DNA of 38,215 bases, from IMG/VR virus record IMGVR_UViG_3300027709_000002, positions 1 to 38,215 of that record; one strand, 5' to 3'. The stretch is from a virus. Positions 7,017 through 38,215 of this stretch are shown one piece after another; the first letter of the stretch is position 1, and every line of letters begins with the position of its first letter. Position numbers and translations under genes: made by a program. Below the pieces are notes generated by a model. It saw nothing but the letters and a program-made list of their open reading frames with translations, did no database searches and was not told the origin of the DNA.

Positions 7017-7151
7017 ATGGGTATAGCACCATCAGGTGAACACACCTCAATAACAAGAGAAGAATATCTGCGTGTTCGAGAAGCAGACGCTAAACGTCGA
7101 AGACAAAAAGAAAGAGAGAGAAATGGCGAAGATACTAAAGAACTTTCCTAA
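7017..7151 (+). CDS. Small charged helical protein
   Basis: A 44-residue protein whose second half is highly charged (RVREADAKRRRQKERER) and probably a single helix that could bind nucleic acid. The ATG at 7017 has GGGAGA at a six-base spacing and begins one base after the previous stop. It overlaps the next gene by 29 bases. No family recognised. Confidence 0.5.
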   Translation: MGIAPSGEHTSITREEYLRVREADAKRRRQKERERNGEDTKELS

Positions 7152-7356
7152 CACTAGGAAAACAGAAATGTACCCGTGGGCTGAATGGTTCGACGGTGTA
7201 CCAAGACTCCTCGAAGCAGGGGTCGACTTCCAAGTACCGTACAACTCGTTTCGAGCATCCGCTCATCAAGCGGCTAAAAGACACGGGTTGAAGGTGAGGG
7301 TTGCTAAACTAGATAATGGTATGGCACTACAAGCGTACAAGGAAACAACTATATAG
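7123..7356 (+). CDS. Hypothetical small actinophage-type protein
   Basis: A 77-residue basic protein. The arrangement W-x-x-W-F-D-G...L...GVDF...S-F-R...A-x-x-H-G-L-K-V resembles short phage proteins of unknown function from actinobacterial phages, in which a tryptophan-rich start is followed by a basic helix. I started it at 7123, where a purine-rich AGAGAG lies upstream, rather than at the in-frame ATG at 7072. A strong hairpin follows the stop. Confidence 0.6.
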   Translation: MAKILKNFPNTRKTEMYPWAEWFDGVPRLLEAGVDFQVPYNSFRASAHQAAKRHGLKVRVAKLDNGMALQAYKETTI

Positions 7357-7692: not shown

Positions 7693-7696
7693 CCTT

Positions 7697-7781
7697 GTCC
7701 GCCACCATGGCATGGCATGTGGAACCCGTTGGGTTCATTGTACATGCCATGCCATGCCATGCGCGGATAGTGTGGTAACAT
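7697..7781. promoter_or_regulatory. ATGGC/GCCAT iteron palindrome before the replication block
   Basis: After GTCCGCCAC (7697-7705), three overlapping ATGG/ATGT units (7706-7720) pair perfectly over 15 bp with ACATGCCATGCCATG (7742-7756). A further GCCAT follows to 7760. The loop itself folds as GAACCC-GTT-GGGTTC (7722-7736). TAACAT (7776-7781), a possible -10, precedes the start at 7789. The same pentamer array and a nearby GTAACAT occur at 38.1 kb before the small terminase. This may be a promoter/operator, a replication origin or both. Confidence 0.65.
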
Positions 7782-7788
7782 AAAACAA

Positions 7789-8613
7789 ATGACCGAAGCG
7801 ACCAACACAGACGACAGAATAATTCTCCGACAATCATGGCTAGGTTCCTTAGCGATGTGTCCAGAGAGAGCCAGACAAGACCTGTTAGGCATCTCAGAAT
7901 CAACAGAGTCCACCAACACTGCAATAGGCACAGCAGTCCACTATGGGATAGAACAATGTCTCACAGAGAAAATGGAAACAGGCGATCCTCTTTCCAAATC
8001 TGAAACCATCTCAGCCTCATTAGAAGAATGGGTTCGGAAAGAACCTGAGATAGTTGGATGGAACCATAAGACAGATGAGTGTGTAAAAATAATTGAACTC
8101 AACACGACAGCGTGGTGGGATGAGGTAATGCCCGACATTGATCCAATAGCCGTTGAGCAACACTTTGAACTACCACTCATAGTTGATCACGAACCCGAAA
8201 TCTGGTTACAAGGAACGATAGATTGTGTTCAATCTTTTCCACGTCCAATAGTGGATTGGAAAAATCCGGGACGTAAACCATCAGATGACTGGGAGAAGAA
8301 ACGATGGTCGGTGCAAGCAGCCGCATACACTTGGGCAGTATTACAAATGTCGGACAACTCTCTGACAGAACCTTTAGATTTTGAGTTCGTACACCTAGTC
8401 AAAGGCAAGGTGCATAGAACTTTAGTGAACGTAACACCAGCAGAGCATGCAAGTCTGGTCGCTTTAGCGCGCTCTGCTGGTACACTCATAGCCGCAAACC
8501 TACCTGTATGGCCGTTAAACATGGTCGGATGGCACTGCGCCCCTAAATGGTGTGGTGCTTGGAAAACATGCAGAGGGAAAATTGCGGGAACAGACCCATG
8601 GAACCAACTATAG
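7789..8613 (+). CDS. Cas4/RecB-like PD-(D/E)XK nuclease with Fe-S cysteines
   Basis: A 274-residue protein. GTAVHYGIE (residues 47-55), Asp 145 in GTID, Asp 156 and Lys 158 in VDWK, and Gln 176 in the VQAAAYTW helix make the catalytic set of the RecB/Cas4-type PD-(D/E)XK fold. Cys 24 and the C-terminal Cys 250, 255 and 261 are spaced as the four ligands of a 4Fe-4S cluster. It is thus a predicted exonuclease for DNA ends, likely in recombination and replication. Length is normal for phage Cas4-like proteins. It starts the replication block, directly after the ATGGC palindrome. No CRISPR genes are nearby, so adaptation is not its role. Confidence 0.85.
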   Translation: MTEATNTDDRIILRQSWLGSLAMCPERARQDLLGISESTESTNTAIGTAVHYGIEQCLTEKMETGDPLSKSETISASLEEWVRKEPEIVGWNHKTDECVKIIELNTTAWWDEVMPDIDPIAVEQHFELPLIVDHEPEIWLQGTIDCVQSFPRPIVDWKNPGRKPSDDWEKKRWSVQAAAYTWAVLQMSDNSLTEPLDFEFVHLVKGKVHRTLVNVTPAEHASLVALARSAGTLIAANLPVWPLNMVGWHCAPKWCGAWKTCRGKIAGTDPWNQL

Positions 8614-11486: not shown

Positions 11487-11991
11487 ACTCGAACCTTGGG
11501 AATATGAATGGGCATCACACGTAGGATGCAGACGGTTCATAGAAAACTGGGATAAACACGACGCATCCCATTACAAACGAGACTACATGGAAGACGACAG
11601 AACAGCGCAAGTAGCAGCAGCAATAGGAGAATTAGCGGTAGCACGAGTAACCAACCAATACTGGGGTGGGCATGTGTGGGCAGGCAACCGTCACCAAGAA
11701 AACCGTGGACGAGCAGACGTAGGTCACAACATAGAAGTTAGAAGAGTTAGAACATCTAACAACGCTGCGGTACGCCGCAGGCAACTAGGGCAAGGACTGA
11801 CCTTGTTCGTGGTACGACCAGTGCCTCCCGAATTTAGAGAAGTAGAGATGCTAGGGTGGATAGATCACGACGAAGCGTGGGAATTAGGAGAACCTTCAGG
11901 TTATGATGCGGACAACACTCGTGTCATATCCGAAGATTATTTGAAAACGGTAACAGAATATGGCAGGGAAACAAAAGGAGTTTCCGACTGA
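11428..11991 (+). CDS. Possible PD-(D/E)XK-like protein
   Basis: Up to 187 residues. AAIGELAVAR (a Glu-bearing helix, about residues 64-73) is followed by RADVGHNIEVRRV (about 95-107). A helix-Glu, then Asp, then Glu-x-Arg pattern resembles restriction-like nuclease folds of actinophages, with Arg where Lys is usual. A Trp-rich end (GWIDHDEAWELG) follows. I am moderately sure of the fold and unsure of activity. The first 15 residues may not be translated: TTG 11473 or GTG 11479 lie after AAGG at 11460-11463 and would cut the overlap with rusA from 59 to about ten bases. Confidence 0.6.
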   Translation: MTDKSCESTPLRSTNLIVIKLEPWEYEWASHVGCRRFIENWDKHDASHYKRDYMEDDRTAQVAAAIGELAVARVTNQYWGGHVWAGNRHQENRGRADVGHNIEVRRVRTSNNAAVRRRQLGQGLTLFVVRPVPPEFREVEMLGWIDHDEAWELGEPSGYDADNTRVISEDYLKTVTEYGRETKGVSD

Positions 11992-12409
11992 TCCAACCGA
12001 CACGTGGCGAGAAGGCAAGATACAGTTTGGAGCGCAAGATAGCCTCTTTCCACACAGGGCATCCACAGAAATAGAATCAATAATGGAAACACCACCATCT
12101 GGTGCAGAACCCCTAGCCGCCTTAGAAACAACCGCTCATATCAAAGAACTATTAGCAGACGTTATAGAAGAACTCAGCCCGCTAGAAAGATGGATAGCGG
12201 AAAGACTACTCATAGAAGGAATGTCTCTTCGTAAAGCAGGAGCAGTTCTAAGTATTCCAAAAACTTCCCTAGCCCGTAGACGTGACAAAATAAGACGCAA
12301 ACTAATGATACGTCTGATGGGAGAACCCGAATTTAAAGAATGGTTACAAGATTTAAACCATTCACTCCCCATCATTGATGACGAGACATTCTCGGATCAA
12401 TCCCATTAA
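11960..12409 (+). CDS. Sigma-70 region-4-like HTH regulator
   Basis: A 149-residue protein with an unstructured acidic N-terminus. Residues 71-116 (ELSPLERWIAERLLIEGMS, then LRKAGAVLSIPKTSLARRRDKIRRKL) have the helix-turn-helix of sigma-factor region 4: a 'leave-it-to-the-polymerase' helix, a turn and a basic recognition helix. It lacks region 2, so it is more likely an anti-sigma-like, sigma-appropriation or late-activator protein than a full sigma. It is the last gene of the early rightward arm and overlaps the end of the late arm. This is a good position for switching late genes on. The ATG lies 31 bases inside the previous gene. Confidence 0.7.
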   Translation: MAGKQKEFPTDPTDTWREGKIQFGAQDSLFPHRASTEIESIMETPPSGAEPLAALETTAHIKELLADVIEELSPLERWIAERLLIEGMSLRKAGAVLSIPKTSLARRRDKIRRKLMIRLMGEPEFKEWLQDLNHSLPIIDDETFSDQSH

Positions 12410-36174: not shown

Positions 36175-36972
36175 TTAAACAAAACAATGAGCAGTCTCAC
36201 AGGTATCAGGACCATCTTCAAATAAACTTTGCTGATCCGGTAAATCTCGCATCTTACCATAGGTTTTAAAAGTGCTATGCGCTTCAAACCTTTCAAAAGT
36301 ACGCTTACTCATCTCTTCTTCCAAATCAACGACCTGTTCAAACAAATCAGGTTTTTCGCGTCTCAACCTCAACCAATAATCATTATTATGAAACGGGCAG
36401 TAAAAACAAGCCGAACGAGGAGCAGGAGGCAAACCAGCATCTTTCACAATAGTTCGACACTGCGCACGAGATATCTTTCCATCCACTAAAGGAAAATCGT
36501 TTATCTGATACCTTCGCTTACTGTCCGACATTCGGTGAATCTCATCATAAGAAATACCTAACCCCATCATCACAGGATCATGCATCGTCGCACCCTCTTT
36601 ACGAATATGCTTTTCCAATACTCTGATTTTCCAATGTCCAGTACAGTTACGATTCAAAGGTGGCGCTCTGTGTTTTCCTTTTCTTGGAACAGTTAAACGC
36701 ACCGGCAAAGGAATTAAATTAGGTTCATTCATAATCTCTTCCCTGATGGAACGCTCCACCCCATCTTTAGAAACGCGTTTTAAAACATGTAACTCCATGC
36801 CATGTTTCGCCATAAAAGGTTTATGAACATTTTCCATATACTCGTAAGTCTCAGGATGTTCATCACCAGTATCAGCAAATAGAAAAGTTTTAAAATCTAT
36901 TTCACCCTGCGCTGCTAAAACCATAGCGGCTGTAGATTGCACCCCTCCGCCAAAACTAAAATACTTTTTCAT
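36175..36972 (-). CDS. PAPS-reductase-like PP-loop protein
   Basis: A 265-residue PP-loop ATPase of the PAPS reductase/DndC-like group. FGGGVQST (7-14) is the PP-loop. Cys 110 (in NRNCTGHWKI) and the C189-x-x-C192 pair (in ACFYCPFHN) are spaced as ligands of an Fe-S cluster in phage homologues. SYDEIHRMSDS and WLRLRREKPDLF complete the family pattern. Phage homologues may take part in DNA thiolation or sulphur-based modification, which is not shown here. It lies between the small and large terminase genes. Start overlaps upstream stop (TAATG). Confidence 0.85.
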   Translation of the reverse strand: MKKYFSFGGGVQSTAAMVLAAQGEIDFKTFLFADTGDEHPETYEYMENVHKPFMAKHGMELHVLKRVSKDGVERSIREEIMNEPNLIPLPVRLTVPRKGKHRAPPLNRNCTGHWKIRVLEKHIRKEGATMHDPVMMGLGISYDEIHRMSDSKRRYQINDFPLVDGKISRAQCRTIVKDAGLPPAPRSACFYCPFHNNDYWLRLRREKPDLFEQVVDLEEEMSKRTFERFEAHSTFKTYGKMRDLPDQQSLFEDGPDTCETAHCFV

Positions 36973-37427: not shown

Positions 37428-37582
37428 TCGCAAGATTCACACGTCTCAGGGTTTTCCAAACCGCAAACGAGTTCCTCATCGTCGGAAAAAACATCATATT
37501 CTTCAGATGAAAACGCACCATCATAAACCAAGTCAGGACGCTCCCCCAAAACCATTTCATCCTCATAATCAACCTTCCCCAT
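37424..37582 (-). CDS. Small acidic protein with C-terminal Cys cluster
   Basis: A 52-residue, strongly acidic protein ending CGLENPETCESCE, where Cys 40, 48 and 51 form a possible metal site. Comparable endings occur in small phage genes. It begins inside the end of the small terminase gene (overlap 14 bases) and overlaps the next gene by four bases. A longer frame here (37303-37572) looks like a shadow. Function unknown. Confidence 0.6.
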   Translation of the reverse strand: MGKVDYEDEMVLGERPDLVYDGAFSSEEYDVFSDDEELVCGLENPETCESCE

Positions 37583-38027
37583 CAATAACCCTCAGATGAT
37601 GAATTTGTGCCTCCAACTCATCAGCCAACTCAGTGTCCGACATAGCCGCCGCATCACGATCCTCAACAACAATCTTACGACGAGGAGTAAACTTCTCAAT
37701 ATACTGCAAATACAAAGAAGCAGCCTGAACACTCCCGCTAACAGCCTGAGAATGCAAAGCATCAATAACGCCCTGAGTACGCTCAGGATGAATATTCAAC
37801 TCAGCAGCACGACGATCCCACTCCTTAGTGAAACGCATATCACGCTTAATGCGACGAATAGAATTTTCGTTAATATCGTTCTCTTTAGCCCAATCTTTTT
37901 GAAATTTAGGAACCCTATCGGGTCCCTGAAGTAGCCAATCTAAAAGATCTTTCCATTTTGTGGGCATTATCTTTTCGCCAGTCTCTTCGTCTGTTAACCA
38001 GCCGCGTCCGCCACCGTTTTGTGCCAT
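37569..38027 (-). CDS. Terminase small subunit-like DNA-binding protein
   Basis: A 152-residue protein. Residues 27-75 form a helix-turn-helix (WKDLLDWLLQGPDRVPKFQKD, then ENSIRRIKRDMRFTKEW). Residues 85-115 (RTQGVIDALHSQAVSGSVQ, then AASLYLQYIEKF) make an oligomerisation hairpin, as in small terminases. An acidic end follows. It should recognise DNA for packaging and pair with the large subunit. GGAGG is eight bases before ATG 38027; a TTG at 38042 is unlikely. First gene of the leftward arm, just downstream of the ATGGC array. Confidence 0.8.
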   Translation of the reverse strand: MAQNGGGRGWLTDEETGEKIMPTKWKDLLDWLLQGPDRVPKFQKDWAKENDINENSIRRIKRDMRFTKEWDRRAAELNIHPERTQGVIDALHSQAVSGSVQAASLYLQYIEKFTPRRKIVVEDRDAAAMSDTELADELEAQIHHLRVIDGEG

Positions 38028-38041
38028 AACATGAACCTCCA

Positions 38042-38105
38042 ATAGTAAAACGGAGACTGTCCCGTGTTACAATCATGTTACAATGGTCTAAAAAGGCGGG
38101 ACAGT
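38042..38105 (-). promoter_or_regulatory. Operator-like repeats upstream of small terminase
   Basis: A nine-base inverted repeat ACTGTCCCG (38056-38064) / CGGGACAGT (38097-38105) encloses two direct copies of TGTTACAAT (38065-38073 and 38076-38084), 11 bp apart, one helical turn. This is the layout of a regulator or origin-type site. A TACTAT-like box on the leftward strand at 38042-38047 is too near the ribosome site to be convincing as a -10. Confidence 0.55.
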
Positions 38106-38125
38106 GGCGACATATAAGTAGACAC

Positions 38126-38189
38126 CATGCCATGCCATGCCATGAAAACAGTACGCCACCCATAGTGGCGGACAGCAGTTCGCTGAACT
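38126..38189. promoter_or_regulatory. ATGGC/GCCAT array with flanking hairpins, late side
   Basis: CATGCCATGCCATGCCATG (38126-38144) holds four overlapping copies of the unit seen at 7706-7760. Beyond it are CGCCAC-CCATA-GTGGCG (38154-38170), GTGGCGGAC (38165-38173, the reverse of GTCCGCCAC at 7697), and AGTTC-GCT-GAACT (38177-38189). The elements recall those before 7789 but differ in order and spacing. It lies upstream of the leftward late arm. Confidence 0.6.
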
Positions 38190-38215
38190 AAGGAAAGAAC
38201 TCGCATTGCCCCTCC

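Follow-up and report, generated by a model that had tools for sequence, protein, structure and literature searches.

Paired arrays of palindromic words before the replication and virion operons of a marine phage family, candidate operators of a single phage-encoded regulator

The stretch of DNA analyzed here, which we call the window, is a 38,215-bp virus record from IMG/VR with a GC content of 44%. Its rightward genes between 7.8 and 12.4 kb encode a PD-(D/E)XK exonuclease, a 216-aa protein, a DnaB-like helicase, an AEP primase, RusA and a sigma-like protein. The virion genes run leftward, starting at 38.0 kb with the small terminase, so labeled for its gene position and an HTH-like match below the cut-off (PF13022). 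As several relatives have the site preceding the virion genes only 5-8 kb from the exonuclease site, across the early genes, the window probably represents a form that has been permuted or cut. The late block also holds a PAPS reductase gene (36175-36972; phrog_424, 4.5e-38), found among the compared relatives only in G002, and low-complexity TGTGTATG repeats lie near the window start (10-27 and 1217-1268). The phages probably infect marine Actinomycetota, since distant relatives of the exonuclease occur in MAG contigs labeled Actinomycetota and Acidimicrobiaceae. With a relative of 57% GC (G010) the window shares an exonuclease of about 75% identity at a base composition far apart, which suggests hosts of different base composition. 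The nearest annotated phage, MW202803, has neither the array nor the candidate reader described below. The features of the two sites are collected in Table 1.

Table 1. Features at the exonuclease site and the late site of the window
Feature	Position	Strand	Remarks
Candidate reader, 77 aa, unnamed family	7123..7356	+	two genes upstream of exonuclease
Small ORF, 88 aa	7426..7692	+	between candidate reader and array; from translation; homologues in 5 other contigs
Left box TGTCCGCCAC	7696..7705	+	identical to box at late site of window genome
Left array, 3 x CATG	7706..7719	+	5-bp period
Inner hairpin GAACCC-GTT-GGGTTC	7722..7736	+	sequence varies among lineages, stem retained
Right array, 4 x CATG	7743..7761	+	5-bp period
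Extended -10 (TG-G-TAACAT)	7773..7781	+	ends 7 nt before exonuclease ATG
PD-(D/E)XK exonuclease, replication operon gene 1	7789..8613	+	PF12705 3.7e-12, phrog_1218
Small terminase, late block gene 1	37569..38026	-	start taken as ATG at 38026 (MAQNGGG...)
Late leader TGTCCC...GGGACA around GTAACAT iterons	38058..38103	-	outside shared element
Late TATA box (TATATG)	38111..38116	-	7 nt before TGTCCC
Late array, 4 x CATG	38126..38144	-	5-bp period
Short hairpin GCCAC-TATGG-GTGGC	38155..38169	-	overlaps late box
Late-site left box TGTCCGCCAC	38165..38174	-

The initial annotation had described, at both sites and nowhere else, arrays of the pentamer ATGGC together with a shared word and a GTAACAT box. 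A search for all ATGGC runs of at least three units bears out the confinement to two places, 7.70-7.76 kb and 38.13-38.14 kb: exact threefold runs (minus strand) occur only at 7746-7760 and 38129-38143, with a twofold run at 7707-7716. The shared word GTCCGCCAC is indeed present at 7697 and, as its reverse complement, at 38165, with a third copy at 38006 within the small-terminase coding sequence. GTAACAT, in turn, does not hold up as a common box, as the window contains 10 copies on either strand, of which the one at 7775 is part of the -10 and that at 38.07 kb is an iteron with 11-bp spacing. The repeat unit itself is better described as a palindromic 4-mer recurring at 5-bp intervals, the fifth base being free, (CATGN)n. 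Of overlapping period-5 triples of any palindromic 4-mer, the window contains 5, compared with 3 summed over 100 dinucleotide shuffles; 30 related contigs (670 kb) contain 45, compared with 0-2 per shuffle. When all 16 palindromes are compared over periods 4-20, period 5 alone stands out, and with CATG and CTAG only; every one of the 30 maximal period-5 triple arrays in the 30 contigs is CATG or CTAG, and the inspected sites are the exonuclease and late positions. Many relatives also have a conserved block, TGTATAGATATGGAGGGACAG, on the upstream side of the late array; the window stops just inside it (38207-38215).

The previously noted 15-bp inverted repeat at 7706-7720/7742-7756 is real and perfect, as is the inner hairpin in its loop, and as a single DNA strand the 7.7-kb element folds with a z of -5.95. 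The 38.1-kb element folds no better than its shuffles (z = -0.69 as RNA). A long hairpin was accordingly rejected as a feature common to both sites, being found only at 7.7 kb and missing from the late site of the window. An Rfam search of the window gave 0 matches above the gathering score.

Each array stands immediately upstream of a conserved promoter sequence. At the exonuclease sites, a TANNNT box, mostly TAGGAT or TAAGAT, ends 6-8 nt before the start codon in 66 of 74 distinct cases and is preceded by TGN in 50 of these 66, while any TANNNT at 4-10 nt before the start is found in only 13% of 618 control ORFs. Because the -10 ends so close to the start codon, the sequence predicts a leaderless exonuclease mRNA. 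From array end to this -10 the distance is 30-33 bp in 8/8 CTAG, 19/38 CATG and 8/16 CATATG sites, with smaller groups at 3, 14 and 27 bp; the spacing is not rigid, and the late-site array lies nearer to its -10. At the late sites, TGTCCC is preceded in most of 57 distinct leaders by an A/T-rich box (about -15 to -8); from this spacing the hexamer is the probable late +1, or else part of a packaging site. Conserved -10 elements with candidate binding sites directly upstream are thus found at both promoters, as in activator-dependent middle and late promoters. Further into the late leader of the window (38036-38110, minus strand) and of L083-L162, GTAACAT iterons with a spacing of about 11 bp have TGTCCC/GGGACA hexamers on either side; the iterons number about six in L102 and are absent in CATATG phages such as L098; beside the small terminase, these hexamer-flanked iterons are possibly a late 5' leader or a packaging site.

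How are the elements distributed among relatives? Loci were recruited via the exonuclease (80) and the small terminase (80), and more came from two further scans; the loci recruited by either gene mostly have the array in front of it. In all, about 220 IMG/VR relatives retain the array before the exonuclease/replication operon, before the small terminase, or before both where both are visible. Loss from close relatives that keep the genes, which would count against the proposal, was checked for, and the elements are retained. The word itself differs by lineage, with CATGN in most phages, CTAGN in one group and CATATG in others; a few outliers (L069, L247-L252, L264, L265, L277) have a strong hairpin at the matching place and no clear palindromic word. 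Within a genome, the two sites agree: the word class is the same in 14/14 contigs with both sites and a recognizable word, at a distance of 5-8 kb where measured. This word is CATG in G000, G001, G002, G005 and G010, CTAG in G020, L227, G039-G041 and G043-G045, and CATATG in G023; the weakest cases are G039, G045 and G023, with one exact late-site unit, and G043 and G044 are near copies. In G001 even the fifth base is alike, with CATGT at both sites, and the left box also matches within each genome (TGTCCGCCAC in the window, TGTACGCAAC in G001, TGTAGTCAAT in G020, TGTAGCCTCC in G023).

As the 14 concordant contigs are related, they do not represent independent trials. The exonuclease tree requires only about four word changes, too few for a sign test on independent pairs, so that both the word concordance and the residue association discussed below rest on few events and are inflated by shared ancestry. 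On this tree the CATATG phages fall into separated clades (p-AU 0.06 against a single clade), which hints at a parallel word change. Since the two sites lie kilobases apart and have nevertheless stayed alike through several changes of the word, one reader for both is the best explanation.

What could this reader be? The sigma-like protein (11960-12409), one of the binders put forward initially, makes a poor candidate, as its helix IPKT(S/T)(L/V)AR(R/K)RD is kept across the three main-clade word classes (ISKTSVARKRD in G009); the other, the small terminase, has its gene at one of the two sites only. The best candidate, and the likely array reader, is the 77-aa protein encoded at 7123-7356. Homologues precede the exonuclease in relatives of all main-clade word classes, with a divergent form in G039; none was detected in G040-G045, where the elements are kept, and in the outliers L247-L252, L264, L265 and L277 a homologue is present and the simple palindromic word absent. 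G040, G041 and G043-G045, with CTAG elements at both sites, have another basic ORF immediately preceding the exonuclease array.

Word-predicting alignment columns (U≥0.9) are denser in the candidate reader (4/72; positions 29, 54, 63 and 31) than in the five other proteins compared, namely the exonuclease (0/268), the 8552 protein (3/179), DnaB (0/311), RusA (1/113) and the sigma-like protein (1/110). Residue 54 is H/Y in 49/50 CATG phages, R/W in CTAG phages and something else in CATATG phages, a rule broken by L027, which combines CATG with R54; M/Q at residue 46 is confined to CATATG phages. As the reader was sought after the words had been seen, this residue pattern is a lead and not a pre-planned test. 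A comparison of gene trees did not single out the reader, as the 8552 protein and RusA need no more changes. The AF2 model of the candidate (pLDDT 87.5) consists of a short strand, one helix (40-53) and a beta-hairpin, and its nearest folds are unnamed viral proteins. Of five readers compared with Pfam, four matched nothing and the remaining one had only a spurious hit below the threshold, leaving the protein outside the Mor/C family, and neither PHROG nor PDB searches by sequence and fold returned anything named or any relative of solved structure.

Taken together, these observations point, with fair though not high confidence, to both elements being operator arrays of one phage-encoded transcription regulator, likely the 7123-7356 protein, that would govern the replication (middle) and virion (late) operons. 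The candidate reader would be produced from the genes that close the early block. Its operator would consist of the lineage-specific palindromic word repeated every 5 bp beside a lineage-specific left box, directly upstream of each promoter. As each of the three main classes uses a palindromic word, symmetric DNA binding is suggested, and the reader would probably bind the palindromes as dimers, side by side, with the 5-bp period placing neighboring dimers on alternating faces. A shift of reader specificity in a lineage would then be followed by a change in both arrays. Since the arrays lie at or upstream of the -35 position and the exonuclease promoter has an extended -10, we lean toward activation, by analogy with Mu Mor. 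Thus, the shared regulator suggested in the initial annotation is well supported by the retention of the elements in relatives, the joint switching of words within a genome and the conserved promoters directly downstream.

The same reader could instead be a repressor that shuts off the middle and late promoters, possibly for superinfection exclusion, with the word classes as immunity groups. Words that switch at all sites together do resemble heteroimmune groups, and the late-site array covers or abuts the -35/-10 region; still, we regard this as unlikely, as the distance from array end to the downstream -10 is 27-34 bp for all CTAG and CATATG and half of the CATG exonuclease arrays, neither an integrase nor a lysogeny repressor turned up among the proteins searched in a non-exhaustive annotation, and early promoters would be the more usual target. 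Somewhat less probable is the other proposal of the initial annotation, paired replication sites, in which an origin and a second required site, like ori and crr of P4, would be the targets of a phage initiator whose iterons differ by lineage. Direct repeats, the strong DNA hairpin and the adjoining operon with exonuclease, DnaB-like helicase and AEP primase would suit such a system, and a coevolving initiator would equally account for the co-switching. However, the second array precedes packaging and virion genes, the window lacks the long hairpin at its late site, and no iteron-binding initiator family was recognized in the replication block; the conserved promoters adjoining both arrays lend this proposal no support and speak against it. 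Replication iterons of the plasmid and P4 type are tandem repeats near replication genes, usually longer and with a period of about 20 bp. The window arrays share the tandem arrangement near replication genes, but have a 5-bp period, and one of them lies before packaging genes.

The arrays might also be read by a host factor, with the word tracking the host lineage. The GC content of the relatives spans 42-60%, and as they differ this widely, their hosts probably differ as well. Yet CATG is found at 44% GC as well as at 57%, and CTAG at 46% as well as at 59%, and no four-unit CATGN arrays were found in two MAGs with distant relatives, which are small, probably incomplete, and whose own phage contigs are without the CATG word; we consider a host reader improbable. 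Slightly less credit still is due to an RNA leader with a 5' hairpin as the conserved function in place of a DNA operator. The 7.7-kb stem is kept while its sequence changes, and in G040-type contigs the element is preceded by TATACT and followed by an SD-like purine run. Against this, the window's late element does not fold comparably, the CTAG late array is a one-directional repeat with no complementary arm, and the usual promoter follows the array, which would therefore not be transcribed from it.

Returning to operators of a shared regulator, the nearest working analogue is the middle promoter Pm of phage Mu, where short inverted repeats of 5 bp stand in for the -35 and are bound by a dimer of the activator Mor (PMC4390567). 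While both systems have short 5-bp repeats before a phase-specific promoter, the Mor site comprises two inverted repeats in one 16-bp element centered at -43.5 (PMC4390567), whereas the window family has 3-8 palindromic tetramers, one each 5 bp, at two promoters and with a word that varies among relatives, and for its candidate reader neither sequences nor solved structures gave a match. In evolutionary terms, the Cluster A mycobacteriophages come closest, as in both groups related phages differ in their motif; in these actinophages the operator/stoperator motifs vary following the repressor (PMC6550527, PMC9283540). Stoperators, however, are 13-bp asymmetric sites across the genome that are bound by a monomeric repressor (PMC6550527, PMC9283540), as opposed to two promoter-linked arrays of palindromic words. 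We do not claim membership in either system, given that the protein matches neither family and the form of the sites differs. In phi29, the early protein p4 acts from sites near the promoter, together with p6 at a single promoter region, to turn transcription from early to late (PMC3100819). The window family would likewise use a phage protein at promoter-proximal sites, but at two promoters rather than one region. To our knowledge, phi29 has no lineage-dependent word array of the window kind. Nothing relevant to this array type was found in the literature searched.

If the proposed reading is correct, it describes a regulatory circuit for a widespread, apparently uncultured marine phage group, adds a new family of small DNA-binding proteins, and offers a natural experiment in which a regulator and all its sites switch specificity at once. 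More tentatively, and with more doubt than conviction, we envisage an undescribed family of tiny phage regulators that bind palindromic tetranucleotides as a filament of 5-bp period at two promoters, with few residues setting the word. Reader and both operators would be re-coded together by lineage, providing a natural recognition code and insulated circuits among co-occurring marine phages. The five-unit array is in any case a usable signature: a scan of the whole collection of 2.9 million viral contigs found CATGN or CTAGN arrays of this length in only 18 (6 CATGN, 12 CTAGN); six of these resemble simple repeats, and the other 12 belong to the family of the window phage by exonuclease or terminase HMM.
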